The position numbers and the translations under genes are program-made. Under the pieces are notes generated by a model. It searched no databases. It saw nothing but the letters and a program-made list of their open reading frames with translations, and was not told the DNA's origin. Shown in pieces: positions 10,728 through 61,370 of a stretch of DNA of 64,000 nt (within the stretch, counting starts at the first letter, position 1; every line of letters starts with the position of its first letter). The DNA comes from Botryosphaeria dothidea. Lineage: Eukaryota > Ascomycota > Dothideomycetes > Botryosphaeriales > Botryosphaeriaceae. The stretch is taken from contig WWBZ02000022.1 in NCBI GenBank assembly GCA_011503125.2, positions 3,224,001 to 3,288,000 of the forward strand. The letters run 5' to 3'.

Positions 10728-11637
10728 TCATCTAATAGCATCTTTGGGTGAAGTACGGGCTTGTGAGAAACTTATACAGTGAGTATTGCAGTCCCGCTGC
10801 GGCTGATGAGCGCTGCCGTTGTTACGCCAGCTTGGCTGCGACTGTTGCAATGTGCCAGCGTAGTTGGTACGGTGAGGCGAGACGCGTTGATGATCCTGTG
10901 CGAAGGACGAGTGCTGCGTAGGAAGCCCAGGAGAAGGAAGTGTAAAAGCCGGAGGAGCGAGGCGAGGAGGAGCGGAGCTGGAAGGAGGGGCGAGGCCAGG
11001 ACGAGGAGGAGACCAAGCTGCTGCCGCCGGATTCAGCGAAGTGCTGACTCCGGCACCGTCACCCGTCACGGTGCTGTCAGACCTGTCGTCACTTGCGGAA
11101 GACAAACTTCCGAAGTGAGACGAGCCGTCAAGCACCATCGACGAGGACGGCGCCGGCTCACGAGAGATATAGGCATCCAAGGGACCCCCTGTCGGTAAAT
11201 TAGAGTCAGAAAAGGATTTTTATAAGTATCACATTCAAGATTCACTTACACTTCTCGACCTCGTAGAGGCCAGGCGGCGCGGGGATGATCGGGCGCGACG
11301 GCTCGGAGGAGGCGGTCGAGGGAACAACTGCAATTGACCAGTCAGTGTCAGTATGTAGTTTGTGCAAGAACATCTGAGGCTTTTACTTACACTCAACCAG
11401 CCCGCTCCTCGTCGTCATCAGGGCACTCGGCTCACCCAGGCCCAACAGTGAGAAGCGGACGCGGAAGCCCGCTTCCTCCCATTGCTGGGCCTCGGGCGGC
11501 ACGACAAGCCCCCAGACCGGCAGCGTGATCGCTTTAGACTCTTCAGCACTGGTGGAGGAGGAAGGAGGGGGAGGAGTGCTGTTGTTGGTGGCTGCGTCAG
11601 AAGCCGCGGCGGCGGCAGCGAGGCGGGAGGAGACCAT
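10728..11637 (-). CDS. Orphan protein A with AG-aromatic-x-V motif
   Basis: Three exons, 11637-11391, 11327-11250 and 11188-10728, give 261 residues. Introns 11328-11390 and 11189-11249 have GTAAGT donors and CAG acceptors, and phases agree at both joins. Residues 1-35 are an Ala/Ser/Pro-rich leader. Residues 37-62 form a compact segment: a strand-like ITLPVWGLVV, a helix with Trp53, then AGFRVRF. The rest (Pro/Ser-rich with Gln and His) looks disordered. No signal peptide or membrane segment is evident. The compact segment recurs in the proteins at 25672, 51427 and 59118. Function is unknown. A TATA-like element lies about 50 nt upstream of the start. Confidence 0.75.
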
Positions 11638-11686
11638 GGCGGTGTCGTAAAGGAGATAGTGTGAAGAAACAGAGATTGAGGGCGTA

Positions 11687-11692
11687 CTTATA
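11687..11692 (-). promoter_or_regulatory. TATA-like box of gene A
   Basis: Reads TATAAG on the minus strand, 50 nt upstream of the start codon at 11637. Position and sequence fit a TATA element with a short leader; there is no independent support. Confidence 0.35.
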
Positions 11693-12447
11693 CCCTCTAG
11701 ACAGACCACAAAAGATTTCACGGCACGTGGGGCGCTAGCGAGGGTGCCTGCTTCATTCGGAAGGCACAATGTGTTGGAAGGCACGCATCAATCGCGCCAG
11801 GTGAGGTCTAAAGACTCTATCCACGCATCTGCTAAAAAGGATTGCCCTGAGCAGAGAGTGCAGGAACCGAAGAAGCTTAACCTGTCCAAGCCAGATCCGG
11901 TACCATATTTTCAACAGAAAGCAGAGGTCTATACGAGGTTGCGTGCGGTAGACCATATTGGCGATATGGCTCTCTTTCTACGGCACTTTGAGGACCGTGG
12001 TGCCTCTCCATACATATAGAGTAGTACTAGACATTATCAGCGAATGTCCAAAGGCGCTTTTATGGATCCTTTCATGAGCTAGAGAACAGGACAGGGAAGT
12101 GATAAAGATGAGGTAGACAGGTAGACAGCAGCTTCACTCTCGGGCCACTTAATTATGAAATGCACTACTCTCGTGTCATCTTGATCAAATTACTCATGCC
12201 ATACGGCAATCTTATGGGGTTTCAAAGCAAAATGCAGAACTAAATACAAACTGTCCGTGAGACGGACCTCAATCTTGGGAAACCGGTACTCTAGAGACCA
12301 GCAAACCTACCCTTTTTACGCCCCTTGCTCGAAACTGAAGCATTTCGCTATGCGGGTATCGTCGCAATAATCATTAACAGCCATAACGGCACTTCCAATA
12401 CCAAAGAGTCCCGACACCCACAAATCAGTCCGCCCACACCCACCGAC
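11693..12447. other. Intergenic, no gene seen
   Basis: It lies between the start of gene A and the 3' end of the 12448-13848 gene. The 91-residue frame at 11744-12019 has no recognisable domain or splice context. Confidence 0.4.
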
Positions 12448-18192: not shown

Positions 18193-19249
18193 TCATTTCT
18201 CGGGGTCAGCTGGTGTCTGGCTCTGTTGTCGAAGCTTGTCAATGCTCTCGTCAACAAGTGCGATCTCAACATCGACTTTCAGGAGTTTCTCTTTGAGCAT
18301 CTGCTCGTACTCGTCCTCTGAGAGCACTTTGACAGGGCTGAAGCGGGAGTCGGCAAGCTTCCGAAGCCAGCTCTTGCTGTCGGCGGCTTTGTCAGCGGCG
18401 GCGGCTTCCTCAAACCGAGCAGCGTGTCTGGAATCCAAAAAGTCGTAGAGATGCTGTCCCGCAAAACCAAAGATTGAGAACATGACAGCGCCGGGAATAA
18501 TGTGCGACCGACTTCCTATCCCGGTGTCAGCACGGAATTTGTATGGCTGGGCAAGCCACAACTGTGATTACTGACGTGTCACGGCAGCCACAATTCCGCC
18601 AGAGAAGCCCCCGGCAATGGTACTGGCCTTGACCCTTTCTTTCTGTGAGAAAGTGTCGACGTTGCCGCCATTCGGACGGATACCCCGTTTGACGTCAAGC
18701 CAAGCCTGGAGGCCTCGTCTGTTCAAAATGGCACTTCGGGTGGCTATCCCTATCAGCAAAGGGGCAGCGATTGCACGTGTGTGACTGATATTACCCCAGT
18801 ATACAGAGCCTGCTGTGAACCATTGCGCACCGGCGAACGCTGCGAACAAGGCCGGAGATCCGGAAAAAGCGATGCCTTGTGCACCTCCCAGCAGAAGCCC
18901 CCCGCTGCCTGAGAGAATATATCAGCAACCGCTCGCAGTCGGCAAGATCACGCGTCGCAAAAAAGATACGAAAAAGAAATTTTGCACAGTATTGCAACCG
19001 CTCAGTCCAGCTTCGCGTAGGAGACAGGGGTCGGCGGAGCACAGGAGCAGGAGCAAGGAGTCCGGATAGATGGGCTTTCATTGACACGTGAATGGCCGCG
19101 GGACGGAGTACGGAAACGCTTGGATGCGCGGAGGCATTGGTATTGTGCTTACCGGTCAAAGCGCCGACCTCCAAAGCGGAGGCCAGGAGAGCGGAGGGAG
19201 CAGCGACATGCTGAGCGGGCTGCTCAGAGCTGGGATTGCTGCGCTGCAT
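18193..19249 (-). CDS. Tim17/Tim22/Tim23-like membrane protein
   Basis: Three exons, 19249-19153, 18908-18576 and 18515-18193, give 250 residues; all joins keep phase (ALT-G|G-SGG; AAVT-R|R-SRS). Introns are 244 nt (GTAAGC..TCAG) and 60 nt (GTCAGT..ATAG). Glycine-rich membrane spans (GGLLLGGAQGIAF, FAAFAGAQWFTAG, IAGGFSGGIVAAVTRR, PGAVMFSIFGFAGQHLYD) resemble the Tim17/22/23/PMP24 superfamily, which acts mainly in the mitochondrial inner membrane. A C-terminal tail of about 70 residues is charged and coiled (SEDEYEQMLKEKLLKVDVEI). No standard mitochondrial presequence is obvious. I infer an inner-membrane protein of unassigned role rather than a core TIM subunit. Confidence 0.72.
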
Positions 19250-19586
19250 GGTTGGGCACAAACGTGGGTGAGCGGGAGTCGAAGGGCTTGGAAGCTGCCG
19301 CGTCGCGCTTCATTTTGGCTTTTCCTCGCGGGGAGCGAGCGGGCGGGCGGGCACACGTGACAAATCAAATCAACCCGCGAATGTCTTGGCAGAGCGGCGG
19401 TCCGAGTGGATTTTGTTCCTCAACTTCAGCCTATTAGTTCACGACGCACAATCGCGCGCTCCCACCGCACCACCGATTGACGCTATTTCAACCCCGCAGA
19501 CATTTTTCCTGAGGGCTTCCGCTTCCCTCAGATTTCTCCAGCCAACGCGCTCACGCTCCGCAGCGCGTTGACTGACTCCCGCAATC
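19250..19586. other. Shared divergent promoter region
   Basis: 337 nt separate the start of the Tim17-like gene (minus) from the eIF4B start codon (plus). Both are housekeeping-type genes and may share this bidirectional promoter. Confidence 0.5.
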
Positions 19587-21543
19587 ATGGGTTCGTTCGC
19601 CCTCTGTGCCGAGTTCGCCCGGTGAGGCCACTGGCCTCGCGCGCGCTGCAAGATCTCGCGCATGCCCTCCAGGGGATTCAGCAAGCTAACACGACGTTCA
19701 GCTCCTAAAAAGCAGGCCCAGAAGATGTCCCTTGGGGACTTCTTGGGCGACCAGTGTATGTTTCCACCGTGCCACCCGCGTTGAGGTGCTCTATCCATCT
19801 GAATTGAGCTAACTCGACAACAGCGCTGGGCTCTTGGGCCGATGAGATGGAAGATCTCCCTGTTTCTGGTAAATACTCTGCCAACCATCGTAACTGAGGA
19901 CGCTTCGCTAACAGTTGAGCAGGTGGTTAGTGTTCTCGCACATCTTCCGACTCCACCATGCGACCCCGCAGTTGCTCCTCTGACATCATATAAACAGGAC
20001 CCAGCGCTGGCTATGGTAGCAGCAGGCCCTCGTTCGGCCCCTCTGGCGGTGGCTTTGGCGGCTACGGTAAGATACACCGCTGTCTCCCTTTCTAAGGGCG
20101 CGCGCTCATTTTCCTCAACAGAACGCGGTCCCGACCGCGGCGGCTATGCGGTTCGCGAGGAACTCCCTCTTCCCACCAGGCCTCCGTACACTGCCCACTT
20201 GGGCAACCTCTCATTCGACGCGACCGAAGGCGACATCCAGGACTTCTTCCTTGACTGTGACGTCACGAGCGTACGCATTGTCGAGGACAAGCTTGACCGC
20301 AAGCCGAAGGGTTTTGGATATGTCGAGTTTGGTACTCTGGATGGTCTCAAGAAGGCTCTTGCTCTTAGTGGTACCCAGTTCCAGGGCAGGAACATCCGTG
20401 TGAGCGTTGCTGAGCCGCGTAAGTTGTTTTCACCCGTATATATGTACAAGGAATCGGATAACTAACGAAGTTCGCAACTGTTTAGCCAAGGACCGTGTCG
20501 AGACACGCGTCTTCGATGACTGGACTCGTAAGGGCCCTCTCCCCCCGCTTGCCAACGAACGTCCTCGTGGTGGAGGTGGCTACAGGAACTTTGACTCTGG
20601 AGCATCTGATGCAGGCAGCGATCGTGGCGGTCGCAGCCGTGGCTTTGAGGGCGAAGGACGTACGAGGGACTTTGGTAACTGGGAGCGTAAGGGCCCTCTG
20701 TCGCCGGTCAACCCTCCTCCTCGCGAGTCGCGCGAGCCTCGCGATCGCAAGGCTTCTCCTTCCTGGGGTGAGGGCCGCTCCGGTTCTGAGACATCCAGGC
20801 CGCCGCGTCGTGACTTCTCTGAGAGCCGCCCGGCCCATGACAGGCAGCCTACTGCGCCTGAGCTCGACAACTCTTGGCGCGACAGGATGCGTCCCGCTGA
20901 ATCGGCCAAGTCCCCCACCGCCACCCCTGATGCCAGCACGCCGTCGTCCCCGGTTGCCAAGCCCGCTGCTCCTGCTACGCGGCCCCGCCTCAACCTCCAG
21001 AAGCGTACTGTTTCGGAAACTCCTGCTGCAGCCAACACGGCGGCTGGCTCCGATTCCAAAGCCAGTCCATTCGGAGCTGCACGCCCTATTGATACTGCTG
21101 CTAAGGAACGGGAAATCGAGGAGAAGAGGCAACTCGCTCTTCGCCAGAAGAAGGAAGCTGATGAGAAGGCTCGCGAAGAGAAGCGTGCGAAGGAGTCCGC
21201 CGCAAAGGCTGAGAAGGCTGCTTCAAAGGATGAGGAGACTGAGAACGGTGCTGGCTCTCCTCCGGCCAACAAGAATTTCGAGATCCTGAGACGGATGGAG
21301 GAGACGGGTGAGGGCGCTGACGAGGGCGATGCCAATGGAACGATCGTTGAGGACAAGGCAGTCAAGCCCAAGGAAGTTACGCGCGACCCTAAGCCCGCTG
21401 AGCAGTCTTGGAGGCGCAAGGACTCGGCTCCTGCTGCGGAGGCTGCCTCAACTACGGAAACTCTGGAGGATGACGGCTGGAGTACGGTTCCCTCCAAGGC
21501 GAAGAACAGCCGCAGGGGTGGCTCTCGGGCCATTGCCTCGTGA
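19587..21543 (+). CDS. Translation initiation factor eIF4B
   Basis: Six exons: 19587-19590, 19702-19755, 19824-19868, 19998-20066, 20122-20418 and 20486-21543, giving 508 residues. Every join keeps phase, and the N terminus reads MAPKKQAQKMSLGDFLGDQ then SLGSWADEMEDLPVSG, the expected start of fungal eIF4B. An RRM spans about residues 75-150 with RNP2 HLGNLS and RNP1 KGFGYVEF. Two short repeats (FDDWTRKGPLPP and FGNWERKGPLSP) follow, then an Arg/Asp/Ser-rich region, a Lys/Glu/Ala coiled region (KEREIEEKRQLALRQKKEAD) and a C-terminal DDGWSTVPSK. It stimulates eIF4A during ribosome recruitment in the cytosol. Exon 1 is only four bases, ATGG. The 129-nt third intron was checked for a microexon; none kept phase. 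Confidence 0.92.
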
Positions 21544-22806
21544 AGGAAGCCCGGTCTTCCTTACGCCACGCCTTGACGCCCCGACATACCCCATTCGCCG
21601 ACGCATCGAGGAGTCACATTTCCATGGTGGATGAACGATGCTTATGGTGTGCCCTGATTTGCGATGGTTTTTCTTCGAGCTGCGGTGTTCATTGTCAGGC
21701 GTATCGGGGGCATGTCTGCTATTTCGCAAAAATGCAACTGTAGCCTATTGACTGCTCACGGCATGCTGGTGAATCGAGACATGTCTTTGAGACGTGAACT
21801 TCGATACCTCCACGGTTTTTCCTAGGAACAAAAAAGAATGTCGGAGGTAGTACTTGGTCTGGTCTGGTCTGGTCTGGTCTGATCTGGTCCCCTTCTTTCC
21901 TTCTCACCACTCTTCCGTCTCCACTCACGCTAGACTCCTGATGCATGCAGCCCCGAACACTTTTCCTTTCCGCACATACCACGACCTCCTTCTTTCCCTC
22001 TTCCTTTGTTGCTCTTCGGGCCCTAAAAGTTTTTGCTTAGCTGAATGGGAGGTGCCTGGAATGACTTGGACGTTCGACATGGTGGCGTTGGACGCTCGAC
22101 TTTTTCAGATGCCTGAGAGGCGTGGTGAGTTAGTACGACCTTTCGATAGATGAAATGCCCAAAGCTTGTAATAAAGCAGCATGTGCGTGATTGAATGTGA
22201 ATGCAAGCGAAACACCGCTGCCCGTAGAGTTAGCTTGAAGCATGAGGATGCTACAAGGGCAGCCAGACAACGTCATCGAGGCGCAAGGTTGGGATTAGGT
22301 CGCGCATGGAGCAGGATGGTGCTCGGGGCAGGCGGTTGTGGCACGGCTGCAGGCCGTCTGCTGGCCAACGCCGCGCGGGCGCGCCAGCGGCGACGGGAGC
22401 GAGCCACGGGTGAGAGGGAAGGCAGCGCTCGTGGGCGGCAGACAAGCGGCGACACACCTCGAGGCTCAAGGGTTCCCAGCACGGCGGCGCAAATCCAGGG
22501 ACCACTTTCGCGGCGCACATCTTCTGAGGCTTAAGCGTGGTTGACTCGTAGGGCTGCAGACCCGGCCCGAGTTGGGGCAAGCGGGTCTTTTTGCGCTCCC
22601 CTGGTGGCGATCGCACGAGACCGGACGCGCATAATCTCTTAGCTAGCAACCTTCTTTCATGTTTTCTTACTCAACATCCTCACTCTGCAGCCTAACGCGT
22701 GCCTCAGCCTGACGTATGATTCCCGCTCTTTGCATCCCGCCCGTTTCGCCCGCCGCCCACGCAGAGCTGCCCACATTCTTTTGCCTGCAACACCGACGCT
22801 GCAGCC
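21544..22806. other. Intergenic between eIF4B and DOT1
   Basis: About 1.26 kb without a supported gene. It contains the eIF4B 3' flank, a 5-bp tandem repeat at 21856-21885 and the DOT1 upstream region. Confidence 0.45.
21856..21885 (+). repeat. Tandem (GGTCT)n pentamer
   Basis: Five exact copies of GGTCT at 21856-21880 are followed by one variant GATCT and a partial GGTCC. It lies in the eIF4B-DOT1 intergenic region. Confidence 0.95.
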
Positions 22807-24421
22807 ATGAATATCGACTTCAAAAAGAAGCCCGTCATCCGTACCCAGACCGTGCTCGTCCGCCGCTCGAATACGCCTGCCCAATCGCCCTCGCCCCAGA
22901 CAACGCCGCGCCCACGCCCCAAGCTGCCCACGCCCGCCAGCAGCAGTCGTCTGAATGGCGCAACCTCGTCGTCCCATGTTGCGGCTGCCGCCAGCAGGAG
23001 GCACGTCTCCGCACCGGCCGTCCCGACTGTCAAGCGCACTCTGATCAAACGCAAGGCCCCGACGCCCGCCACCCCGCTGTCGTCTGACTCTGAGGGCAGC
23101 GACACCGAGGACTTTTTGGACCGCGAGCTCACCCCGCGCAAGCGCATACGTGCCAGCCACTCGCTCGAGCCTGACCTCCACAGGAAAATACGCGCCGCTC
23201 CGCTCAAGGCTGCCGACGGCTCCGACGCACCTGTCAGGTTGAGGATTCTTCACGGCGCAGACCTTGTCAAGAGCGATCATTGGAAAGACGATAGTGTGCA
23301 GGGCTATCACGCGACCAAGGATTTCAAGCCCGCCTTCGAAGGTCTTGACGAGGTTTCGGTTGTGGGCCTGCAATATCCCAGCAAGTCGCAACCCGAAAGG
23401 TACCTAATCCCGGCTTATCTCTCACGACCTGAGACTGACCCTACGCCACAGGTTCTCACTAGTGTATCCCCGCGAGAGCGACGGCTACAAGCCTCTTGAA
23501 GACATCATCCAAAGCGTCGAGACCATCTGCAAACACTATTTTCCGGACGAGGCCGAAACACTGATCGATGAGGGCACAGGCTACCCGCGCCGCCTCAAGC
23601 GCGCGATACAACAGCAGTCCATCTCGGCTTTCAAGGATGTGCTGGCGGAGTTCAACAAGATGGTGAGCGGCGCTGTAGCGTCGGGAAAGACAGACAAGGC
23701 TCTCGATGAATTGCAATCTATGCCGCTGCCGCTCATCGAGTATATACTCTCGCAGACGTACGCCCGCACGGTGTCACCTCGCGTCAACTCGCTCCGCCGC
23801 TACGAAGCTGGCTCGAACAACGTCTACGGCGAGCTACTGCCGCGCTTCGTACATCGTATTTTCCAGGAGACGAAGCTGAAGAGCGACCAGATATTCGTGG
23901 ACCTCGGCTCAGGTGTAGGAAATGTGGTCTTGCAAGCAGCGCTAGAGGTTGGCTGCGAGAGCTGGGGAGTGGAGAGCATGCCAAACCCCTCGTACTGTGC
24001 AAGTCTCCAGAAGAGGGAAATCATGCACCGCGCCCGTCTGTGGAACATTTCGCTCGGCAAGATCAACGTGCTCGCCGACGATTTTCTCGAGAATCAGGAG
24101 GTTGGCCGCGTGCTGAACCGTGCGGACGTTATCGTCGTCAACAACAAGGCTTTTTCGCCGCAATTGAATGGCGCTCTACTGGATAAGTTCCTGGATCTGA
24201 AGGAGGGCGCCAAGATCGTCAGCCTCAAGCCGTTCGTCGACCCGGACCACGAGATCAAGAGCCACAACGTCAACGACAGGGTCAATCTTTTCAGGTGCAC
24301 GGAGAAAGAATATTTCAGCGGTTCGGTGAGCTGGACGGATGAGGGCGGCAAATACTATATCCAGGTCAAGGATCGTAGCAGGTTGGACAAATTTCTGGAG
24401 GGCTCGCGCAGGAGGAGATGA
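22807..24421 (+). CDS. DOT1: Histone H3-K79 methyltransferase DOT1
   Basis: Two exons, 22807-23399 and 23452-24421, give 520 residues; the 52-nt intron (GTACCT..CACAG) sits in an Arg codon (PER|FSLVYPRES). The N-terminal ~150 residues are basic and disordered (VKRTLIKRKAPTP, ELTPRKRIRASH), as expected for nucleosome binding. The catalytic half has the Dot1 fold signatures: VYGELLPRFV, the SAM-binding VDLGSGVGN, WGVESMPNP and the active-site NNKAFSPQLN. The enzyme methylates lysine 79 of histone H3 in the nucleosome core without a SET domain, acting in silencing and DNA-damage response. No key residue appears to be missing. Confidence 0.95.
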
Positions 24422-25671
24422 GGGTTCAAAGAAAAGGAAAAGGATAATGGACGGATTTTGACGACGGTATGGAAAGACATGGGTTTGTGAGTCATCTTGC
24501 ATCAGCGGAACGGGATTTAACATCCAGTCTATTGGTGGATATGCCGGTTTTTTGAAGCGTTCCCAGCGAGGAGTGATTGAGAAAGGAGGCACAACAGCTG
24601 ATTGCTAGGATGCATGGGCTGCCTGTTGATTTTTTCTTTGTGCAAGTTTTTTTTACATCACAGCGCACACAGGTTGCATGGGTGGCTGGTTGGGAAATTG
24701 GTCAGGAGCGGCATCATCCGGTATTGGTAGGTACTTCTTCATTGGAATGGCGGGGCCGCGAGATACCACTTCTTTGATGCATTAACTTTCCCCCTCCCTG
24801 CGTCACTTCGTCCCTTGGGACATTTGATTTCGACTTACTAAAGACGTTCACGTTTTCAGCTCACACGAGCTACGCACATTCACAGAGATAAACGACCCCA
24901 CGGTCTTACTTGATCGCAATTTTTGGGCAGAGAGGGTTCTTCGCCAGATCAGAGTTATGATTTAACGGCTGTAGAGCAGCAATTGAACGATATATTGAGA
25001 ACTGACACTACTCAAATGAATATACTGACACTTCCATGAGACGAACAACCCCTCCAGACATGATCATGTAGTAAAGAGAAAGTGATATATTTGTAAGCGT
25101 ACGAGGAGTTGAAGCATTGTTCAGTAAGAAACACAGGTGGCTTCATGGAATCATTCGTTCACAGTGCCTGAACGTTTGTGCATGGGCATGCTTGGGAGTC
25201 TGAAGCAGACAGTGACAGCTGACTAGCACTTATTCACTATCGGCTTACTCAATACACCTCGACAATAACACCACTGTCAATACGCGTGCCTAACGCATAG
25301 CGCTCGCTAACACGGAAACCGCCTCCATATAAACCTCCACTTGCCCATACTTTCTCTCCACTTTTCCTCCACATCCACGTCCGCATTGTCTGCCCCTACA
25401 GCTATTCAAGCTCTCGGCATCCATTGTGAACAACTCGACTCATACGGCTCCCGCCCCGGACCGCGCATCTTGCGGTCCTGCGCTGTTTTTCTGCGACGAA
25501 CTCCTGCGACTTCTCAACGCAAACGTCCCGAGCACTTCGGCCCCGTGCAAGATCGCTCACCTGGCTGCTATCTTGACGTAGTCATTCCGCACGCTCTTCC
25601 GCCAAGGAAATTACTTCAAAATTTCCTCGCGCGACAATACCATCCACAAACAACAACCACTCTCCGTCGCC
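24422..25671. other. Intergenic between DOT1 and gene B
   Basis: About 1.25 kb with no supported gene. The right part is the promoter and leader of gene B, with a TATA-like box at 25328 and a long CT/CA-rich leader. Confidence 0.45.
25328..25333 (+). promoter_or_regulatory. TATA-like box upstream of gene B
   Basis: Reads TATAAA 339 nt before the ATG at 25672. If real, it implies a leader of roughly 300 nt. Confidence 0.3.
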
Positions 25672-27135
25672 ATGTCCATCCGCATCACCACGACCTCACT
25701 CTACACTACGACCACGGCCACACGCGCCGCAGCTCCTCCTACCATCAGCACCCCCATCATCAACGGCATCATGACGCCGTTTCACGCCAATATTGCGTCC
25801 ACTAACAACACTGACACCATAAACACACCCTCTACCACGACGAGCAATGCGCTCACACGCTACATGCCCCGCCCATTCGTCAACATTGCGGTGCCAGCTT
25901 TTATCGCGCCTGCCAAGGCTCTCCGCTATATCGCCGCCGGCTGGCGAGTCAAGTACGCGCAGCCGAAGAAGTCCGTCGGTGCGGTCACTGTTTCGAAGCT
26001 GTTCGGCGCCCTCATCCCTGGTCATGCGAACCACGCGATTGCGAACGATGACGCAGAAGGTACACTGCGCACTTGCATCCACCGCTATGGAGATCTGAAG
26101 AAGACCGTTTCTTCTACCCCAGTTGAGCCTCCCACGACTTCGGCCAACGATGTCCCCGAGCCTATTCAGGCTATCTCCGAGGAGACAACCGTTCAGAATC
26201 AGGCTACGGTCAATGAAGAGCTTCCTGTTGAGAGGCAGGATACTGTACTCACTGAGCAGGATACATTCGAGTCGCAGGTCTGCTCTGCTACCTCCACTAC
26301 TACTGGGGACTCTGTTGTTGAGGAGGCTTCTGCCGGTCCGCACGAGACCGCCTCCCTCGCTTCCATCACTATACTTGAGGCCGACGAGTTCGGCTTCATG
26401 GCTGAGCTGATTGACGATATGGAAACCTCCACTACTGCTGCGGGTGCCGACCCACCTATCACTCCTACTCACCACACCACCCACAGCCCGGTCACCTCGA
26501 GCTTGTTCGGCGGCGACAAGCTCCAGTCCGAGGCCTTCACATTCAGCGCACCGGCAGCCCTCAGCATGACTGACCCCCATCAGTACCCCACCAACACCAT
26601 CTTCGGCGACAACAAGTTGGAACACGCTGACTTCACATTCACTGCGCCGCGCCCTCTGGTGGACGAGCCTGCCCAAGTCAGCAACTCGTTCGGCACGGCT
26701 GCAATGGAGGCAGCCGCTTTCACGTTCACTGCCGGTCGTCCTCGTCGCGACAGCGATGAGACATCTGCCAGCAGCAGTACCGGCGCTAGCATCTTCTCCT
26801 GCGGCCGCGTCTCGCCGACCTCCAATATGGACAGCTCCGCAAGCTCTGTTGGTGATGACGATACGGATGCGGCACGGAAGATGGAGGCGGCGGTAATTGT
26901 GGAGATGTGGAAGATTGTGAACGACGCGCGCTCTCAGATGCGTCATGACGATTGTGAGAGCAAAAAGAACGAAGAGGAGAAGACCCAGGAATCGGAGAGT
27001 CAGGAGAAGAAGAGCAAGAAGGGTGGAAAGAGCGGCAAGAAGAATGGAGGTAAGAAGAAGGCGGCGGAGGCGAACAAGGCTGCTGTTTGGGGAGGCAGGA
27101 AGAAGGGCGGAAAGAGAGGAAAGAAGAAGAACTGA
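25672..27135 (+). CDS. Orphan protein B with AG-aromatic-x-V motif and FTF repeats
   Basis: One exon of 487 residues. Residues 1-65 are Thr/Ser-rich. Residues 70-95 carry the shared compact segment (VNIAVPAFIAP, Tyr86, then AAGWRVKY). A long acidic Glu/Thr/Val-rich linker follows. Three imperfect repeats of about 30 residues then each pair a Phe-Gly with a Phe-Thr-Phe (LFGGDKLQSEAFTF; IFGDNKLEHADFTF; SFGTAAMEAAAFTF), somewhat like nucleoporin FxFG spacing. Next come a Ser-rich stretch, a helix (ARKMEAAVIVEMWKIVNDAR) and a Lys/Gly-rich basic tail (GGKSGKKNGGKKKAAE). No signal peptide or membrane span is visible. A 565-residue open frame on the opposite strand is a composition shadow. Function is unknown. 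Confidence 0.75.
   Translation: MSIRITTTSLYTTTTATRAAAPPTISTPIINGIMTPFHANIASTNNTDTINTPSTTTSNALTRYMPRPFVNIAVPAFIAPAKALRYIAAGWRVKYAQPKKSVGAVTVSKLFGALIPGHANHAIANDDAEGTLRTCIHRYGDLKKTVSSTPVEPPTTSANDVPEPIQAISEETTVQNQATVNEELPVERQDTVLTEQDTFESQVCSATSTTTGDSVVEEASAGPHETASLASITILEADEFGFMAELIDDMETSTTAAGADPPITPTHHTTHSPVTSSLFGGDKLQSEAFTFSAPAALSMTDPHQYPTNTIFGDNKLEHADFTFTAPRPLVDEPAQVSNSFGTAAMEAAAFTFTAGRPRRDSDETSASSSTGASIFSCGRVSPTSNMDSSASSVGDDDTDAARKMEAAVIVEMWKIVNDARSQMRHDDCESKKNEEEKTQESESQEKKSKKGGKSGKKNGGKKKAAEANKAAVWGGRKKGGKRGKKKN
26500..26745 (+). repeat. Three FG..FTF protein repeats in gene B
   Basis: Three diverged in-frame units spaced about 90 nt apart. Each encodes Phe-Gly, a short charged helix and Phe-Thr-Phe-(Ser/Thr)-Ala. 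They differ at many positions, so the duplication is old or under relaxed constraint between the Phe residues. Confidence 0.7.
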
Positions 27136-27706
27136 ACGGGGAAAGAGGATCAGTGTTATTCGAGCTCTTCTTGTATATGCGCGTTTCGATTCTCTTTTCT
27201 TTTTGGTGCTGGTTTGGTATTCATGGGCTAGGGGTGTCAATGGTTTGACTTGATTGAGGCAGAAAACAGAGGATGGCTGTATTCTACACAATGCGTTGCG
27301 GTGCTTTGGGTTTTCGGTCTGCCACTTCGGACATTGTTTTTTTTTTTCAGTTCGATTGAGTGGTATTTGAACTTCATTGGGTTCGTTTTTCAATATGGAA
27401 AGGGGTGTCTTTTACAATGCGCAATAGCTTCATGTCTGTCGACTTTCCATGAGGTCCCAGACTGGGATGGTAGTTGGTATCAGACTCTATACTATCTATG
27501 CTATCAAAACAAAGAAACCAAGAATATGAAAGCGCTAGCAAAGACAGAAACGCAGGACACTGCATTAATGAAATCGTGGACCGTTCCACCCCATGACTCT
27601 CCATCAGACCAACCTTTACTCGAGCCCAATTCCATTTGCCGGACTCGATCCTCTCTTGATACAACTACTCCGTCCCGCCTACCATTTTCAACGAGAACGG
27701 TATCCC
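27136..27706. other. Convergent 3' flanks
   Basis: It lies between the stop of gene B (plus) and the stop of the RTA1-like gene (minus). T-rich tracts are present; I see no coding region. Confidence 0.45.
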
Positions 27707-28912
27707 TCAACCCATCAGCCCTCCAACCCTCACACTCCCCTCTTTCCCTTCCCCCTCCTCCCCCGCCTCGACCGTTGTCGCCGTCGAGAATGGCCGGCTT
27801 CCCATCTCCATATCCCGCGTCTTACCGCGAGCACCCTTCAGAGCCCCCGCCGGATGCACCACATTAAACACGAAGACCGCACCCACCATCATCGCGCCGT
27901 CCAACACGATGAAATATACCTCATGCGTGATCAAATACCCATCCCACCCCTCCAGCAGCTCCACCGTCCGATAAATGCTCCTCACATAGATAAACGCCAC
28001 GCCCACCACCATCGTGGCGACCAGCACCTTCACCCTCCGATCCAGCCCTTTCGCGCGCCGCAGGAAGGCGGCGAAGAGCCCGCAGAAGACGGTTATGGCG
28101 GCCATCTGGAAGACGATGCCGGCGACCATGATGTTCGTGCCGGGCGCCGTGTCTTTGGGGGGTGTCGCGGACGAGGCGACGGACGCCATGCCGCCGCCGA
28201 TGGCCTGCAGCACGAGCGAGACAACGTCGGCGGTGCAGAAGAGGATGAGGTAGGTGCGCGGGCGGAGGGGCGAGGTGTGCGGACCGGACAGGGTGATGAG
28301 GCGGCCGAGGATGACGTAGATTGCGGCGGTCCAGAAGGTGGGTGCTGTTGATTGGAGGGTGGGTGTTAGCGGCTGGGTGTTCTGATCGTGGTGCTCTGTG
28401 CTGGGAAGGGGAGAGCGAAGGCGTGGTGTGGTGGTGCAGTCGTTGAGCAGACTGGGTCTGGATAGAAGTATTGGATGGAGAGAGCCGTCCTGAGGCTTCT
28501 AATGCTTGCCCTCTATGCCGATACTCCAGTCCAACCTGTGTTCAGGGAAAAGAACATACCGATGATCAGTGTTGTGATTTGCATCAGAAAAGCATCATTA
28601 TTGTAAGGACAAGAGGCAGACCATGTTCTACCAATCCATCCGATGACCTCCGCTGTTGTTGAGAAACAGTCAGTATCATGTTGCTTCCGATCGGTAAAGG
28701 TCAGATCAAGGGGCACACTCACTCAAACCGCCAATAGCGAATAACAGCGTCCACCACTGTCGGGTCCATGCTGACTGGACGAGATGCAATAGAGTTGAGA
28801 CACCGAAGAGGGCTGTGAAAGTTATCCCAGCGGCTTCGGATGGTACGTAGCCGTATGATGTCTTGACGCCTGGCTGGTATGCGGTGCAGCCTGTCCGAAG
28901 TTCGGCGTCCAT
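27707..28912 (-). CDS. RTA1-like 7-TM protein
   Basis: Three exons, 28912-28723, 28652-28560 and 28344-27707, give 306 residues. Introns are 70 nt (GTGAGT..ACAG) and 215 nt (GTATGT..ACAG), with phase kept at both joins. About seven hydrophobic spans and the sequence VIGWIGRTWSAS, FLMQITTLIIGAPTFWTAAIYVILGRLI and the late YVRSIYRTVELLEGWDGYLITHEVYFIVLDG are characteristic of the fungal RTA1 (lipid-translocating exporter, RTM1/RSB1) family. Members are plasma-membrane or vacuolar proteins linked to resistance to toxic lipids and sterol drugs. The last ~50 residues are cytosolic, Gly/Glu-rich and variable. Start 28912 (MDAELRTGCTAYQPG) gives the usual short luminal N terminus with one Cys. Confidence 0.9.
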
Positions 28913-48499: not shown

Positions 48500-50458
48500 T
48501 CATCGCATGCGAAAAACTTCGCCCGGTTCCTTCAAACTACCCTCAAGCTCGTCCAGTTCCATAAGACCATCAACATATGCATCACCAATATACGTCGCAT
48601 AATCCGCCCCGGAACTTTGAGTCTTCATAAACCGCAGCACATGAAGTGGCCTGCTCCCACACAGCACGCACACGATATCCCCGGGTTCCATGTGCGGCGG
48701 GCCAAGCCCCAGATGCCCATCAACAGTGCTGAAAAACGTGCGGCCGGTATCTCGCTCAATCACCTCACAGCACTGCCCGAGAAGCCGTCTCGTCTCTCCA
48801 GAGAGGCCTTCTTCGCTGCAAGTCTGGCAGAGGGTTTCAGATGCCGCAGGCCACACCGAACGTGTCGCGTTGGCATCGTCGAGCGGACTGAAGTACTTCT
48901 CTTGGGCCAACACAAAGAAACGGGTCATGACGTGGTTTCCGAAGTCGGAGTAGATGGAAGATGCGTTCGAGACTCCGTCGCCGGCGTGCACACGGATGTA
49001 GCAAGGCGGCGTGTTGTTGTTGGACTGGTGCACTTCCTGCGCGAGGTCGCGGCACTGCGGCTCCCAGGACACCCAGTCTTCGACGCGGGCGGGATCGGAG
49101 ATGTTGTACAGGTTCTGCTGTGCACTTATGTCTTTGACCGTGCGCTCGACAGTGGCTCTTCTGAATCCGGGGATTTCTAATATTTTGTCGTTGTCGTCAT
49201 CCACGTTCGGAATACGAACGCCGGTGCTATGGCGGTGGCCATGTGATCTATTTGAGATTCCTGCGCGGTAATGTTTGTGCTTGAAGTAGAAAGTCCTGTA
49301 CAAAATTGGGGCAGATAAATCTGGACACCAAGATGGCCTCTCGGTGCTCTGTCCCGGCACATATGTTGACAGTGATAGCACCTCGAAGCGAGTGTCGTAT
49401 TTGAGTAGGACTTTGAAAAAGCGCATGTACGTTTTCCAGTAGTGCTCACGATCTTCGTCGCTATAGCCGACGAGCGGTGCGAGCTCTTCCTGCAGATTCC
49501 TGTCAAGCAGCCCGAAGACGCTCCAGATCCGGTCCACGGGCTCCCTGGATCCAAGGCTGTAGCTGGGTGACAGTAAATCCGGAACATATGATGTCGGGCA
49601 TTTGCCCTCGCTCTGAACCAAGTCTCTGAACAAGCCGATGTCCTTGAAGGGGAAGCAGTATGGTGATGCTCTGTTGTTTCTCTGCTTCTTCAGAAACAGG
49701 TTGACATCCCATGGTCCTTCTTCCAGTAGACCGTCGATGCGCGCAAGTACGGTAAAGTCAAGACTGTATGGTCCGCACATGACAACGCTATCTCTGGCCA
49801 ATACGGCTTCCTGGAAGGTCCAGAGCCGGAAAGACCATTCCCGATCCAATATTTCACGTAGCCCAGACCAGACAGGGCCGATTTCTTCATCAAAAAGGCC
49901 CGGGTTTCGGTGCTCCCAGTGGAACGGACAGGCATGACTGCCGTCCTCCAGTGTTTTCAAAACGACCGAAGCTTCCTTGAAGAAGCTATCAGTGTATCTT
50001 CCAGACGGCCCGAGCCATACAATGGCGTGTGGAGCGCCGGCAAATATCGAGCTCATCATCCGTATCTGAACGGCCTTTTCTTGGGGATCTTCCTGATTGA
50101 TGTAAAGTGCATCCATCCAGAGAACGCGGAGCGGAACATCTGAGCTCCATCTGTCTTGGTTCAGATTGTAGCGGTAGAGGTGCTGTAGCAATTCTTTGAG
50201 AGTTGGCGTAACCCGAACACGCTTGTCGTTACAATGGATCGTCTCGGTCCGGTCTTCCGTGCCCCAGGCATATGACACGGCTTCAAAGTTTAGGCCGGGA
50301 GAAAGCTGGGTTGCTCGTAACTTGCAGACAACTTCGTCGTCTCCTTTGATCACAATCAAGAGGCGAATCCAGCCTTCTAGCAAGGGCTCATAGAGCTTCG
50401 AGCAGAAAAACAAGTGAGAGTTCGAAAAAAACATATATTGCCGCATCACCGGGAGCAC
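48500..50458 (-). CDS. HET-domain (heterokaryon incompatibility) protein
   Basis: One exon of up to 652 residues. The HET domain occupies about residues 20-230: YEPLLEGWIRLLIV, FEAVSYAWGTEDRTETIHC, LRVLWMDALYINQEDPQEKA, VQIRMMSSIFAGAPHAIVWLG and the closing FRLWTFQEAVLARDSVVMCG, all canonical blocks. The C-terminal 400 residues are the variable part found in this class. HET proteins trigger cell death or growth arrest after fusion of incompatible strains and are often polymorphic accessory genes. No NACHT, WD40 or other partner domain follows. Start may be 50458 or the Met at 50446 or 50434. It is intact, with no frame damage. Confidence 0.93.
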   Translation of the reverse strand: MLPVMRQYMFFSNSHLFFCSKLYEPLLEGWIRLLIVIKGDDEVVCKLRATQLSPGLNFEAVSYAWGTEDRTETIHCNDKRVRVTPTLKELLQHLYRYNLNQDRWSSDVPLRVLWMDALYINQEDPQEKAVQIRMMSSIFAGAPHAIVWLGPSGRYTDSFFKEASVVLKTLEDGSHACPFHWEHRNPGLFDEEIGPVWSGLREILDREWSFRLWTFQEAVLARDSVVMCGPYSLDFTVLARIDGLLEEGPWDVNLFLKKQRNNRASPYCFPFKDIGLFRDLVQSEGKCPTSYVPDLLSPSYSLGSREPVDRIWSVFGLLDRNLQEELAPLVGYSDEDREHYWKTYMRFFKVLLKYDTRFEVLSLSTYVPGQSTERPSWCPDLSAPILYRTFYFKHKHYRAGISNRSHGHRHSTGVRIPNVDDDNDKILEIPGFRRATVERTVKDISAQQNLYNISDPARVEDWVSWEPQCRDLAQEVHQSNNNTPPCYIRVHAGDGVSNASSIYSDFGNHVMTRFFVLAQEKYFSPLDDANATRSVWPAASETLCQTCSEEGLSGETRRLLGQCCEVIERDTGRTFFSTVDGHLGLGPPHMEPGDIVCVLCGSRPLHVLRFMKTQSSGADYATYIGDAYVDGLMELDELEGSLKEPGEVFRMR

Positions 50459-51426
50459 CAGCTGAATTGACCCAACAAACTCCCCTCTCCACTATCATGC
50501 CATCAGATGATCTTCGATTATCGTGAAGGCTTAGTCACTTGACGATGCGCTGCGGACCTCGACGTAAATGGACCTCCATTCACAGAGAGCCAAATTGGAG
50601 AACCCCGCAGTCCAATATAACACACTTAACCGATGCCCCACCTGGTGCGCATCTTTTCTGCTTTGATGGCCCTGTTCCTTGTCCGGTAGGGATTCTATCA
50701 AATCCATCCATCCTCCACGGCTGGTTCGGGAAAGCTTCCGTGGATAAGCAAGCTTACAACCCATAGTCAGCCAAGCAAATGAGTCCTCGGGGCTACTGAA
50801 GCAGTGAACCCCTGCGTTATTGTGTTGTGTATATACTACAGGTAGCGGTGGCAAAGGCCCCGCAGAGTATCAACACTCTGCCAAGAGTGGCGGGAGTCGC
50901 GCTGGCGGGAGGCCTTTGCTGCACCGCATCAAGCAATTTCAGACAGACTGAGCCTATTGAATTACTGGAGGAATCTCGAAAGCGAAAGTACAGGCGCCGC
51001 AAGTCCAATCATATCAAGATGCTGATACATACCAACAAGCAAAATCAAGTCCCACCGTTGCTTCGCAAGCCATGACGTGCCTGATGACTTGAGTAGTGGA
51101 AACTATGCTGCCTTTTTTTTTCTTCAGTAGGACATTTCTGTGCCTAGAGCTGTCTCTATCATGCAGCTGAGCTTCCACCACGTTGTTTGCAGCCAAACCG
51201 TCAAAATGTTTGTTGCTGGAAATTGCTAGAAATCGGCGACAAGTTTGCATAGCTTCCATGGCTTTGAACGCCAAAGCGCACCAGATTTCTTTCATAAATG
51301 TCATTGTTCCCGCATTTACGCAGTCTAAAACGTCATTCCATCAGAAACCTTACTCCAGAAGACTCCGTCAACAACACTCTTCCCCTTCATTTCCTTTTAT
51401 TTGACCACGGCGGAACACAGTCCAAC
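50459..51426. other. Divergent intergenic region
   Basis: About 970 nt between the HET gene start (minus) and the gene C start (plus). A 107-residue minus frame at 50531-50854 has no recognisable domain. No supported gene. Confidence 0.4.
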
Positions 51427-52311
51427 ATGTCTCCTCCTTTCTCCACCATGCACATCCACATCGGCACACCCATAACCATGCCGACACCGCTCCACGCCCA
51501 ACCCACAAGCACGATGACCCCGCACCGCGCCGCATGGTCTCTCTACATCTCCAACTCCCCGCCGCAAGCCGCAAGCCCCCCGCAGCCCGCCTTCCAGCAC
51601 GCCCGCAACGCCTCCCACGACTCCGGCTACCACGGCCTCAGCCCGCCGCCGCACCTCCCTCATTCTCACGACCACCAAGACCACCCGTTCTTCGACCATG
51701 ACCACAACCCCATCCCGACACCTCCGCCCACTCCCGCTCTGCCCCCCGCGCCGCTGTCGCTCCAACCCGCCACGCGCGGCGCGAACGGAGGCGCCGGCGA
51801 CGACCCCAAGCCCGAGGTCTACATCCCGCTGGTCGGCGCCGTCGCGCCGGCGGAGCTGCGCCGGTGGGAGGCAGCCGGGTACCGGGTGAAGTACTTTTGG
51901 AAGGGCAGGGTGCCGCTGGTGCTGGAGGGCGAGGGCGAGAAAGGTTTCCCGCGGTACATCGACTTCGACGGGTCGGGCGAGGCGCCGCAAGTGCCGGCGG
52001 TGCCGTCGGCCGCCGAGGGAGAGGGGGCGAGGGGGAAGTTGGGCCTGTTTGGCGCGAATGAGCGGTGGGTGCCGGATCCGAGGGGCCGCTGGGGGGAGTC
52101 GAGGCTGGATCCGAGCGCGAGGGAGTTCGCGCCGTCGGTGGGGTGGTGGAGGGCGTTGAGGGGAGATGGTGTGAGGGATGGCTGGGATGCGGGATGGGAG
52201 CAGCCGTGGGAGGGTTATGCGGGTGGGGGTTGGCGGCAGGGCGGGCTTCGTCAACGCGGTCTGGGGAGGGGTGTGTCGGAGTGGTTGAAGAATAGACCGG
52301 CCCGACAGTGA
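51427..52311 (+). CDS. Orphan protein C with AG-aromatic-x-V motif
   Basis: One exon; 294 residues from the ATG at 51427 (337 if the upstream ATG at 51298 is used). Residues 1-128 are Pro/His/Ser-rich and disordered. Residues 131-156 are the shared compact segment (VYIPLVGAVAPAEL, Trp147, AAGYRVKY), and the next ~20 residues (GRVPLVLEGEGEKGFPRYIDF) look folded too. The last third is Trp/Gly/Arg-rich (RWVPDPRGRWGESRLDPS, VGWWRALRGDGVRDGW, GGWRQGGLRQRGLGRG) with four or more Trp-Gly/Gly-Trp pairs. No signal peptide or membrane span. The ATG at 51427 gives a better context than 51298, but either is possible. Function is unknown. Confidence 0.7.
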   Translation: MSPPFSTMHIHIGTPITMPTPLHAQPTSTMTPHRAAWSLYISNSPPQAASPPQPAFQHARNASHDSGYHGLSPPPHLPHSHDHQDHPFFDHDHNPIPTPPPTPALPPAPLSLQPATRGANGGAGDDPKPEVYIPLVGAVAPAELRRWEAAGYRVKYFWKGRVPLVLEGEGEKGFPRYIDFDGSGEAPQVPAVPSAAEGEGARGKLGLFGANERWVPDPRGRWGESRLDPSAREFAPSVGWWRALRGDGVRDGWDAGWEQPWEGYAGGGWRQGGLRQRGLGRGVSEWLKNRPARQ

Positions 52312-52502: not shown

Positions 52503-53458
52503 TCAGAAATGTTGCCATGAGAGATTCTCGGTGATTCTCGCCTCAATTTTGAAAGGAACATTTTCCAGCTTCGGCACCGTGTCTGGGTCCGTAGTAAGCA
52601 CGATGACTTTGAAATTTGGCACGTGGGTTATCCTCTGGAGAAATGCCATGACTCTGAGGACTAAATCGGTGTTCATGGAACTAATTGTGATGTTTAGTTG
52701 ACGAAGGCCGAGAATATTGGCAAGGATTGTGCTAGCTGCCTCCCAATTCTCTAAGTCGGAGTGTAGCTTAAATCGGCTCAGTGTCTCACAGAACTGTAGA
52801 GAGCGGATGGATTGAAAACGTTGAGGAAGAATACCATTTGACAAGAAGCGGAGGGTGTCCATCTGACTGAAATCGAATGTATTGTGTGAATAAAGCATTA
52901 GAATAGCCTCTGAATACCTGTCATTGAAGTCAGCAACAACGCCACGAAGAAATTGTCTTTAGAGAAGATGGCAAGGAGCATACATTTGCCGACATGCCAG
53001 TAACAAACTCGGAAGCGAGGAAAAAAGGGACTAGAGTCGGAGGGAAAGCCTTGAAGTGCATGGGCAACATCACTAGGGTGCCATGAGCCATTACCCAGGA
53101 TGTGCCAGCGACGATAACACTTATGTGCAAAGGTTGGCGCGTGAGGATATTCCTCGATGCACTTCACTGCAAGGAGTTTCCCGCTAACCCACCCAATGTG
53201 GATGACACCTGGATTCACAAGTAGTTCTTCGTAGATGAGTAAGCGGATCTCCTTGGGCAGGGTTGAGAAGAAGGACGACTGCTCTTGCGTACAGGAAAGA
53301 GCGTCGGTTATCGAGAGGGGGCGCGGGCGTTGGATTGGCAAACTCGGTGGCGGAATGGCAGGCGGGAGCGGATTGTCCGTGAAACGTTTAGGCCCACGGA
53401 AGACAAATATCCAATCGTCCAGTTCACGGCGGCATCGCCGGTAAAAAGATTTCATCAT
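52503..53458 (-). CDS. DUF7730/F-box-like protein; exon join unresolved
   Basis: The first part (53458-52984) reads basic N terminus, Pro-rich spacer, then FFSTLPKEIRLLIYEELLVN, the classic start of fungal DUF7730/F-box-like proteins. The second part (within 52917-52503) reads EAILMLYSHNTFDFSQMDTL and continues to a stop at 52503 with Leu-rich content. The obvious GT..AG intron 52918-52983 (66 nt) joins the parts one base out of frame. A second acceptor (TATTCAG) would create a TAG codon. A GC donor at 52997 would fix the frame (intron 80 nt) but is weaker. So this is either a GC-AG intron or a gene with a single-base frameshift. Role probably protein interaction/ubiquitin-related or unknown; confidence in family is moderate. 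Confidence 0.6.
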
Positions 53459-56236: not shown

Positions 56237-56655
56237 AGGTGAGAATGTGTTGGAAATTGAGTTGATTTGATGATTCTCTGGATTGATGGCATGTCTCCCG
56301 AGAGGGGTATGAGAGGGTGCCTGCTATATAGACTATTTGACGCTAAACCCAATGCGGAGCATTCTGAGACGATATTTCCAACAGAATGCGGATAAGGCAC
56401 ATCATTTCGTTTCGACTCTTGTTTCAGACTTGTAGTTGGCGATGTAAATAGAAGATTCTCGGCGCAACGTCTTAGCCTTCTTTTTGTTGGTCCCGTGCAC
56501 GAATGCGGCGTAGAGCGCTACTGTGCTTCGATGCTGTCCGATTACCGTAGTCGACAGGATTCACTTGAGTTGCTGCAGTCATACAGTTCAGTCAAATAGA
56601 GAAGAAGTGACCTCGTTGAGTCCACAAATCTGAGTCCTGAGCAAAGATTCTCAAC

Positions 56656-58458: not shown

Positions 58459-59117
58459 TCTTGACATTGTGTGGGCGCAATATACGGAGGTCTTGATATA
58501 CCTGATTCAGGCATGGTATGTGTGGATGCTCCAGGAGCGGTATGATGCAAAATCAGTGTTCTATGTAGATTTGTAACGCTCAGCAAGTGCAGATAGGACA
58601 TTAATGGAGGCGAAATATAGACTTACTGCAAGCAGAAGCGAATTAAAGCCCACTGACTTATATGGTTCCATGCTGTCGAAGTGTTTGTATCGTAGGGCGG
58701 ATCAGGCAGAGCGGCGGAGCGCTGCAATCTTCAAAGTATGCAGATTAACATGAGAGAGAGCCTGATGCGGTAGAGAAGCAGCGCGTTCATCCAGATCAAG
58801 TGATGTGTAGAGGAGGACGAAAGTAGCAGCAGCGCGGGCGAAGACGAGGAGCAGACGTGTGCGGTAGGCTGAAGAATCAGTGAGCAAAAGCCGGGCAGTA
58901 GGTAGCAAACGAGCAGTGAGGCAAATGAAGGCCCCTCCGCTTGTGTAAGAGTAGTATCTCCGCCGCTCTCCCAGCCGCTGCTTCTTGCGAAAAAACTGAA
59001 GTCGCGTAGGCCTCCCGTTTCGTCACCAGGTCTTGGCACGACCAGCTGCACTAGATATTTGACGCCCTTCTCCTCTCCTCTTCACCCTCCACCAACATCG
59101 ACCAGCACCACGCCGAA
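58459..59117. other. Intergenic, no gene seen
   Basis: 659 nt between the secreted-protein gene and gene D. The C/T-rich right end is the likely gene D promoter/leader. Confidence 0.45.
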
Positions 59118-61370
59118 ATGTCTGCCGCTGGTGCTTCTCGCTCGCCGCCGCCGGCGCCCGCGTCCGTCCGCCTGCCTGTGCAGGCCATCGTCGTCAACCG
59201 CGCCCTGTTCCAGCAATGGATCAGGGCCGGTTACAGTGTGGCCTGGGAGCTGCCATTGGGCACTCCCATGTACGACTGTTCGTTCCGCTCTTTTCTCTTT
59301 ACTTCCATATTTACAGAAACCACTTATTCCTGACAGCTGCTTTCATATCATCTAGGCCAAGACTCCCAGCATATCTTCGGATATGTTGGCCTGCTGATGC
59401 CGCCGACGCAGCCGCCGGCGGACCTGACTCTCTCTCGGCTTCCGCCGAGCACCCCAGGTGACTTTCCGGGGCCTGTTCCCTCGCGGAGGGGGTCGCCGAT
59501 GTCGTCCCTGGGTGTCGCTGCGGGTGGCAGCGAAGAGGGAGGCGAGGGTTCGCCGTACCGGCCGCCGTCGCCGCCGTCGCGGGTGCAGTCTGCCGGTCCT
59601 CGCGCTGGCTCGCTGCCGCCATCTGCTCGTCCGCGCTCCGCTCCGCCGTTGTGAGTGAGCCGAACCAGATACCAAAAAGAGCAGAGAAGCTAACACGTGA
59701 TCGATAGGCCTGCGTTCCCGGTGCCTGGTCTCGTGCTGCCGCCGCCGGCGCTCTCGCCAACCTCACCAGCGCCGTCGACACCTCGTCAGCCCTGGCCGGA
59801 GACCGCGCCACCCTCGTCCGTCGTCTCCTCTTCCTCTCCGTCCTTGCCGGCTCTGCCAACCCCGGCTCCTTCGCCATCGCCAGCTCTGTCGACCAGCACG
59901 ATGAGCGCCAGCAGCAAGATATTCGCTGAGAAGTCCGCCGCCGCCGAGGAGCCCGTCACCACCATGGAGCCCGAGTGCCACGTTGACGAGCCCGAGGACG
60001 AAGGCCCGCCGCCGTCCGCAAAGAACAAGGGCAAGAAGCCAGCGTACCAGGTCACCGACGCTGACGAGCCATACGTCTCCGACAGCTCCGCCAACCTCTT
60101 CGTCAGCCCGCCCAGCCCGCCCATCGCCGAGCAGCAGCCGTCGCAGGTGGAATTCGAGCCTGAGGACGAGCAGTGGGAGGAGTACAGCGCCGAGAAGTGG
60201 GAGCGCGCGACGCCCGCCGACCAGCCAACCACCAGCGACCGCCCTCTGCCGATTGCAACCCCCTCCAAGACCGTCGAAGACACGCTTGCCAGCAAGCCCG
60301 CCAGCAGCGGCTACTCTCTGCCCGGCGCCTCACTTTCGAACGCAGTCCACGCGATGCCCCGCCTGCCAGATCTTGTCGACAACCGCACCGTCGAAGCTAG
60401 CACCGACGTCGACGACGCCACTACCGTTGCTGATGACGACGAGAGCGACCCTGGTCCGGATGTCCAGCTCACCGACATCGACTGGGCCAAGATCTACCAG
60501 CAGAAGCCGATGGACGAGTGGAACGTCGAAGAGGCGCATCTCTTGGGGTCCATCTTGTCCGCTCAGGCGGCGCGCCAGGTCGACGAGAGGGTCGAGAGGA
60601 GGCGTGCGGAGATGGCCCAGAACCTGCAGCAGATCAAGGAGTTGCGCCAGAAGAGGCTCCGCGAGATATCTACTCAGAATGGTGAGGGGGTTGAGGAGGC
60701 GCCCGCTCAGAAGGAGGAAGTCGCTGAGACCGAGGAGAACAAGACGCAGCCGCTCACCCGCAATCAGAAGAGGGCGCTCAAGAAGGAGGCCGCTGCTAAG
60801 AAGAAGGCCGAAAAGAAGCAAGCCGAGGAGGAAGCGAAACGCAAGGCTGCCACCGACAAGAACGCTCCCGACAACAAGACCGCTCCCACCGAGAAGAACG
60901 CCTCCGCTGACAAGACAGCTCACACCGTGCCCAAGTCGAAAGATAACACCCAGCAGCCCATCCCTGTCGTCCAGCGTGTTGGAGGCAGGAGAGTCATCAA
61001 GAAGCGCCAGGCCAAACCCAAGCAGGAAGACACCAACGGCAAGATCGAGGTTGAGGTCACGCAGGAGACGACGGTCACTGAGGAGTGCGTCGAGCAGCGC
61101 GGCGAATCCAGCAGCAGCGCCAGGCAGGTTCCGAACGTCGTGGAGACTACAGGTGGACAGGAGAGGAGGTCGCTTGCCGACGATCCCATCTATGCCAACT
61201 TCTTGCGCAGGCTCGTTCAGAACAGGCCGGAGAACCTCAGCGCGGGTAGTGTCCGCATGAACCAGCTGCGTCGCAGGAAGAGGGAGGAGGACCCGTGGTA
61301 CAGCGATTATGAGCATGACTCTGACTCTGACGAATCTGATGGCGGAAGCAAGCAGTGCGAGACGACTTGA
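59118..61370 (+). CDS. Orphan protein D with AG-aromatic-x-V motif and coiled-coil C terminus
   Basis: Three exons, 59118-59277, 59356-59650 and 59708-61370, give 705 residues. Introns are 78 nt (GTTCGT..CTAG) and 57 nt (GTGAGT..ATAG), and all phases fit (MYD-C|C-QDSQHIFGYVGLL; APP-L|L-PAFPVPG). Residues 17-43 are the shared segment (VRLPVQAIVVNRALF, Trp34, RAGYSVAW), with one extra residue relative to A-C. Then come ~250 Pro/Ser/Glu-rich disordered residues, a short TDIDWAKIYQQKPMDEWNVE block, a long Lys/Glu/Ala/Gln coiled region (RVERRRAEMAQNLQQIKELR; KKEAAAKKKAEKKQAEEEAK) and an acidic C-terminal DSDSDESDGG tail. DPIYANFLRRLVQNRPENLS near the end looks folded. No signal peptide. Function is unknown. 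Confidence 0.78.

Follow-up and report, generated by a model that had tools for sequence, protein, structure and literature searches.

A 64 kb stretch of contig C18 of Botryosphaeria dothidea (genome of 51.7 Mb in 78 contigs), here called the window, contains four genes, A, B, C, and D, whose proteins share one segment of 26–27 residues. The four proteins resemble each other in this segment, the resemblance is confined to the gene cluster at the available search sensitivity, and each of the genes has counterparts in other assemblies. Judged from the sequences of the segments, A and C are strongly supported as kin, B moderately, and D least. The best explanation, to which we assign a probability of about one half, is that A–D are diverged paralogs of a single lineage-restricted family that arose by local duplication, kept the segment as a mini-domain with a possible role in docking or association, and may encode intracellular scaffolds or adaptors.

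Similarity of the segment in proteins A–D

A first-pass annotation of the window had reported the segment as a compact unit with a beta-like strand layout in four proteins. Translation places the four segments where they were claimed to be, except that the segment of A had been put one codon early, at 11532–11455 instead of 11529–11452 (Table 1). The pattern [FWY]xxAG[FWY]xVx[FYW] is fulfilled by exactly four of 15 looser six-frame matches in the window, and these four are A–D. In a blind all-against-all BLASTP comparison of the six-frame open reading frames (ORFs) of the window with at least 60 residues, the two top pairs are B–C (32.0 bits) and C–A (30.4 bits), both aligned at the segment and both with an expect value (E) of 0.004. 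The A–D pair, with E 0.22, lies among unrelated pairs.

Profiles from which one copy had been left out were compared with 6,316 six-frame ORFs from 264 kb, and the omitted copy was the best non-member in all four cases. The scores are 31.1 bits for A (E 5e-8), 32.0 bits for C (E 2e-8), 14.4 bits for B (E 0.0076), and 12.7 bits for D (E 0.028), and the best score in 12 control searches, reversed or shuffled, is 10.9 bits. The pair scores of A–B, A–C, A–D, and B–C are never attained in 2000 shuffles, and that of C–D is attained by 24 of 2000. Based on the profiles, controls, and blind BLASTP, chance similarity was rejected for A, B, and C, and not fully for D. The shuffling, profile, and BLASTP results together indicate that A and C are the core linking the family and that D is its weakest member.

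Outside the segment the proteins are mostly of low complexity and have no clear likeness beyond composition, in line with the first-pass annotation, which had called them otherwise dissimilar and mostly disordered. The upstream and downstream comparisons of the pairs among A–D give values within shuffled scores, the lowest being that of A–D upstream, which is reached by 6 of 300 shuffles. An A–D similarity that continues past the segment (unmasked BLAST, E 2e-9) was attributed to composition: for the parts downstream of the segment, taken by themselves, 29 of 300 shuffles score as high. A third strand that might be shared downstream (HRYGDL in B, PRYIDF in C) was also rejected, as the best of the six pairs among A–D is reached by 90 of 1000 shuffles.

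Copies in the genome and relatives in other assemblies

As genome queries, A detects only A and C, and C detects only C and A (E ≤ 10); the two genes are 40 kb apart in the 51.7 Mb genome. Gene B detects only itself and a copy on contig C73, D detects only itself, and the consensus of the four copies recovers A, B, C, D, and the duplicate on C73 only. The 200 kb flanking the window contain no further copy. Because the genome search is word-limited, the copy count is a lower bound. The segment had been proposed to be a mobile or repeatedly reused domain; however, dispersed copies in unrelated genes were not found within the sensitivity of the search, and none was detected outside one 48-kb stretch save the assembly duplicate. 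Since the copies detected are confined to 48 kb, local gene duplication fits better than a mobile domain.

A DNA pattern of the AG[FY]RV[KR][FY] type has six matches in the genome (one in the control), which are A, C, and four other places. The four others were rejected as copies: against the profile of all four copies, three of them score 11.2, 9.5, and 7.1 bits, and these either have no first strand or belong to a longer frame that is unrelated. The fourth has no open frame of 25 residues. A shorter pattern, with 1,491 matches versus 1,415 for the reversed control, is uninformative.

Contig C73 (10,965 bases) duplicates positions 18836–28523 of the window with 99.9% identity (two mismatches and nine one-base gaps in 9,691 columns). 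The second copy of B on this redundant contig was therefore rejected as a paralog. The open frame of the C73 copy is shorter, with 392 versus 517 codons. Bases 1–1280 of C73 (L031) match neither the window nor the surrounding 200 kb, which indicates that the duplicate stops at a junction at window position 18836.

Protein searches yielded seven homologs: P0001, matching C; P0002 and P0003, matching A; P0004, matching D; and three for B, namely P0005, P0006, and the more distantly related P0007. The protein search depends on shared five-residue words and can miss distant relatives, and the search that yielded the relatives of B scored the 7,995 best-sharing candidates. Two of the homologs are named as hypothetical proteins of Botryosphaeria dothidea. 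P0003 (SLS57_002223) is the counterpart of A in another assembly, and P0005 (GTA08_BOTSDO14304) has 471 residues, 16 fewer than B. P0005 is recorded on a contig of 10,965 bases, the length of C73, and seems to be the annotation of gene B from that duplicate contig. The longest contig has 171,420 bases for both P0001 and P0002, a hint that A and C are neighbours in the relatives as well.

P0007 and B are 34% identical over 376 alignment columns, and P0007 used as a genome query detects only B and its duplicate (E ≤ 1). The identity is dense at B residues 81–140 (37 of 60 positions in three 20-residue blocks) and again at the lysine-rich end, at residues 461–480 (13 of 20). Because the dense identity continues past the segment, the conserved block of B, of about 75 residues, is longer than the 26-residue segment. 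A compact unit of 26–27 residues is what A–D have in common, whereas in B the conservation relative to P0007 extends beyond it. In window positions 26500–26736, B also has a short repeat centred on FTF[ST]A that occurs three times (SLFGGDKLQSEAFTFSAP, TIFGDNKLEHADFTFTAP, and SFGTAAMEAAAFTFTAG), and P0007 likewise has three FTF places. The end of B (window 27073–27132) consists of NKAAVWGG and the lysine/glycine-rich tail, and is retained in P0007, unlike much of the middle of the protein.

Gene models, predicted fold, and known families

Table 1. Positions of genes A–D and of their shared segments in the window.
Feature	Position	Strand	Description	Basis
Shared segment in protein A	11452..11529	-	Residues 37-62, ITLPVWGLVVPPEAQQWEEAGFRVRF	Translation, profiles, BLASTP
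Gene A	10728..11637	-	261-residue model; three exons: 11637-11391, 11327-11250, 11188-10728	
Shared segment in protein B	25879..25956	+	Residues 70-95, VNIAVPAFIAPAKALRYIAAGWRVKY	Translation, profiles, BLASTP
Longer conserved block of B, beginning with the segment	25870..26097	+	About residues 67-142	Common to B and its distant relative P0007
Gene B	25672..27135	+	487 residues, single exon; lysine/glycine-rich C-terminus	
Shared segment in protein C	51817..51894	+	Residues 131-156, VYIPLVGAVAPAELRRWEAAGYRVKY	Translation, profiles, BLASTP, AlphaFold
Gene C	51427..52311	+	294 residues, single exon; alternative in-frame ATG at 51298 gives 337 residues	
Shared segment in protein D	59166..59246	+	Residues 17-43, VRLPVQAIVVNRALFQQWIRAGYSVAW; one residue longer	Translation, profiles
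Gene D	59118..61370	+	705-residue model; three exons: 59118-59277, 59356-59650, 59708-61370	

The introns of genes A and D were placed by eye and have GT–AG ends. Intron 1 is in phase 1 in both models and follows the segment, 20 residues downstream in A and 10 in D, where the donor GTTCGT was picked to preserve the frame. The exon ends of A are provisional, because its ortholog P0003 has a public model that differs in splicing after the segment. The disorder of the four proteins was judged from composition alone. In each protein, the 12-mer of highest hydrophobicity lies in the strand-1 stretch of the segment.

The neighbours of A–D in the window that match Pfam families include transporter-like ORFs, DOT1, an RRM ORF, cohesin SCC3/STAG, UreD, a TFIIIC subunit, a HET-domain ORF, and a DUF7730/2EXR ORF. 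The HET-domain ORF (48500–50455, minus strand) is positioned just before gene C, and the DUF7730/2EXR ORF (52901–53458) is on the other side of it. A scan of the window with Rfam gave no match at gathering thresholds.

AlphaFold predicts a strand-helix-strand fold for the segment of C, with a mean predicted local distance difference test (pLDDT) value of 80.8, so that the layout described earlier is reproduced in the model of this copy. Foldseek matches are weak, with a best E of 1.9, and include strand-helix-strand units in alpha/beta enzymes. None of ten sequences reaches the cut-off of a Pfam-A family (A and D, each as N-terminal part and full model, B, C, P0001, P0003, P0005, and P0007), and NCBIfam contains no family for the five sequences compared with it. 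A sequence search of the PDB returned only designed knot proteins with E 0.03–0.44 over 16–18 residues, which were taken as chance matches. Within Pfam, NCBIfam, and the PDB, these results bear out the initial impression that the segment matches no known family.

No paper was found for the peptide AGYRVKY or for the loci GTA08_BOTSDO14304 and SLS57_002223, and the titles and abstract openings of papers listed for Botryosphaeria orphan genes and B. dothidea genomes mention nothing on this gene family. The two loci, which represent gene B and the counterpart of A, are named as hypothetical only, with no link seen between them or to a domain. The four-gene family looks real and undescribed, and it looks like one of an ordinary kind, a lineage-restricted gene family. 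It is similar to taxonomically restricted (orphan) clustered families in its clustering, low complexity, absence of a known domain, and small number of homologs; two of the seven proteins are named B. dothidea, one of them probably from this assembly, in a word-limited search that can miss distant ones. As in such families, kinship between the members is recognisable, to the differing degrees given above, and the paralogs are close together with none elsewhere within the word-limited search. In contrast to such families, the only trace of kinship detected among A–D is one element of 26–27 residues, and the genes are interspersed with housekeeping genes and not side by side.

HET-s type fungal amyloid signalling motifs are short conserved motifs in otherwise different fungal proteins that are encoded near each other. 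Compared by description only, the segment of A–D resembles them as a short motif in differing, nearby-encoded proteins. However, the A–D proteins are without any Pfam domain and the segment is not at the C-terminus. Pfam detects no NLR or HeLo-type effector domain in the A–D proteins; the neighbouring genes were not screened for it.

Origin and possible role of the family

Local duplication is favoured as the origin of the family by the reciprocal match of A and C within 40 kb, by the failure of the searches to detect copies elsewhere, and by the similar intron after the segment in A and D. The near-invariance of the segment in close counterparts (103 of 105 positions), the strand-helix-strand prediction for the copy of C, and the suggested proximity of A and C in relatives also speak for it. 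One ancestral gene would have given rise to A–D by local duplications within one 48-kb stretch of a B. dothidea chromosome, among housekeeping genes. The family would be old, with members that have otherwise diverged beyond recognition. The 26–27-residue mini-domain, for which a strand-helix-strand fold is predicted, would have been kept in or near the N-terminal half as the sole recognisable shared part.

Several observations weigh against the duplication of one ancestral gene. Apart from composition, the proteins are alike only in the segment, and the 55 residues after it are unlike among A–D, so that whole-gene duplication would require extreme divergence. The four-way link, as far as the scores show, runs through A and C. 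The B–D similarity is at the level of chance, since 497 of 2000 shuffles reach it, and the left-out score of D, 12.7 bits, is near both the best control and an unrelated pattern match (L030, 11.2 bits with the profile of all four copies). Genome-wide, a consensus without B or without D recovers the other three copies (plus C73 where B is included) and misses the omitted one, which indicates that copies equally distant elsewhere could escape detection. The five AlphaFold models of the C copy have mean pLDDT values spread over 63–81 and a predicted template modelling score of 0.45, and in an 89-residue AlphaFold model of B the segment reaches about 65–71 and the part after it remains below 50. 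In the close counterparts P0001, P0002, P0004, and P0006, compared over exon sequence with P0003 and P0005 left out, 103 of 105 positions of the segment are conserved versus 754 of 810 in the rest (Fisher P 0.053, not significant), and a stronger conservation of the segment is suggestive at most.

Likeness limited to the segment, with unlike flanks, is also consistent with ectopic recombination that placed local copies of a small exon or coding piece in four genes of different origin, in which case the segments would be homologous and the genes would not. The start of the segment varies (residues 17, 37, 70, and 131), and A and D hold it in their first exon. However, in B and C it is internal to a single long exon, the searches detected no copy beyond the 48 kb apart from the duplicate contig, and a dust-masked blastn self-comparison of the window is empty, with no DNA repeat joining the loci. 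We consider such a transfer rather unlikely.

It is also unlikely that the family consists of A, B, and C alone and that D, selected by eye, resembles them by chance. The left-out E value of D, its weak pair scores with C and B, the failure of the genome-wide consensus of A, B, and C to recover it, and the loss of A–D among unrelated pairs in the blind BLASTP all point in this direction. It is mainly the match to A that places D in the family, and the counterpart of D, P0004, gives no independent support, because the search profile contained D. Nevertheless, no shuffle reaches the A–D pair score, D ranks first among the non-members in 264 kb, and its modelled phase-1 intron occurs soon after the segment, as in A.

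The predicted strand-helix-strand fold and the alpha/beta enzyme units among the weak Foldseek matches would agree with a remnant of a larger Rossmann-like enzyme domain, an origin that we regard as very improbable. Lineage-restricted clustered genes in a plant pathogen could encode secreted effector-like proteins, but this is highly improbable for A–D, given the lack of a strong N-terminal hydrophobic core (the best 12-mer of the first 40 residues averages at most 1.53 in plain hydropathy), the overlap of the most hydrophobic N-terminal 12-mer of D with the segment itself, the lysine/glycine-rich tail of B, and the lysine-rich stretch of D from about residue 506.

If A–D are a locally duplicated family, the mini-domain may provide a docking or self-association surface, the exposed strands of which would pair with another copy or with a common partner. 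The disordered parts would carry gene-specific contacts, and the A–D proteins would be intracellular scaffolds or adaptors, not enzymes. Enzymatic activity is unlikely for a hydrophobic strand-helix-strand this small, and the proteins look intracellular because of the tail of B and the lysine-rich stretch of D. We tentatively assign the segment a docking or self-association function within disordered proteins of the cell interior, which we regard as possible but less likely than not. It is quite improbable that a mini-domain of about 26 residues was born in this lineage and folds or co-folds as a strand-helix-strand in such a way that the otherwise unrelated, disordered proteins of the cluster recognise each other and form a mixed assembly sharing only the adhesive piece.

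Orphan genes in clusters usually appear in annotations as individual hypothetical proteins; the common segment unites four of them into one family and supplies a seed profile. Genes A–D form a small test case of how far a protein diverges while one mini-domain persists. If the segments do bind each other, they would represent a compact lineage-specific assembly code.
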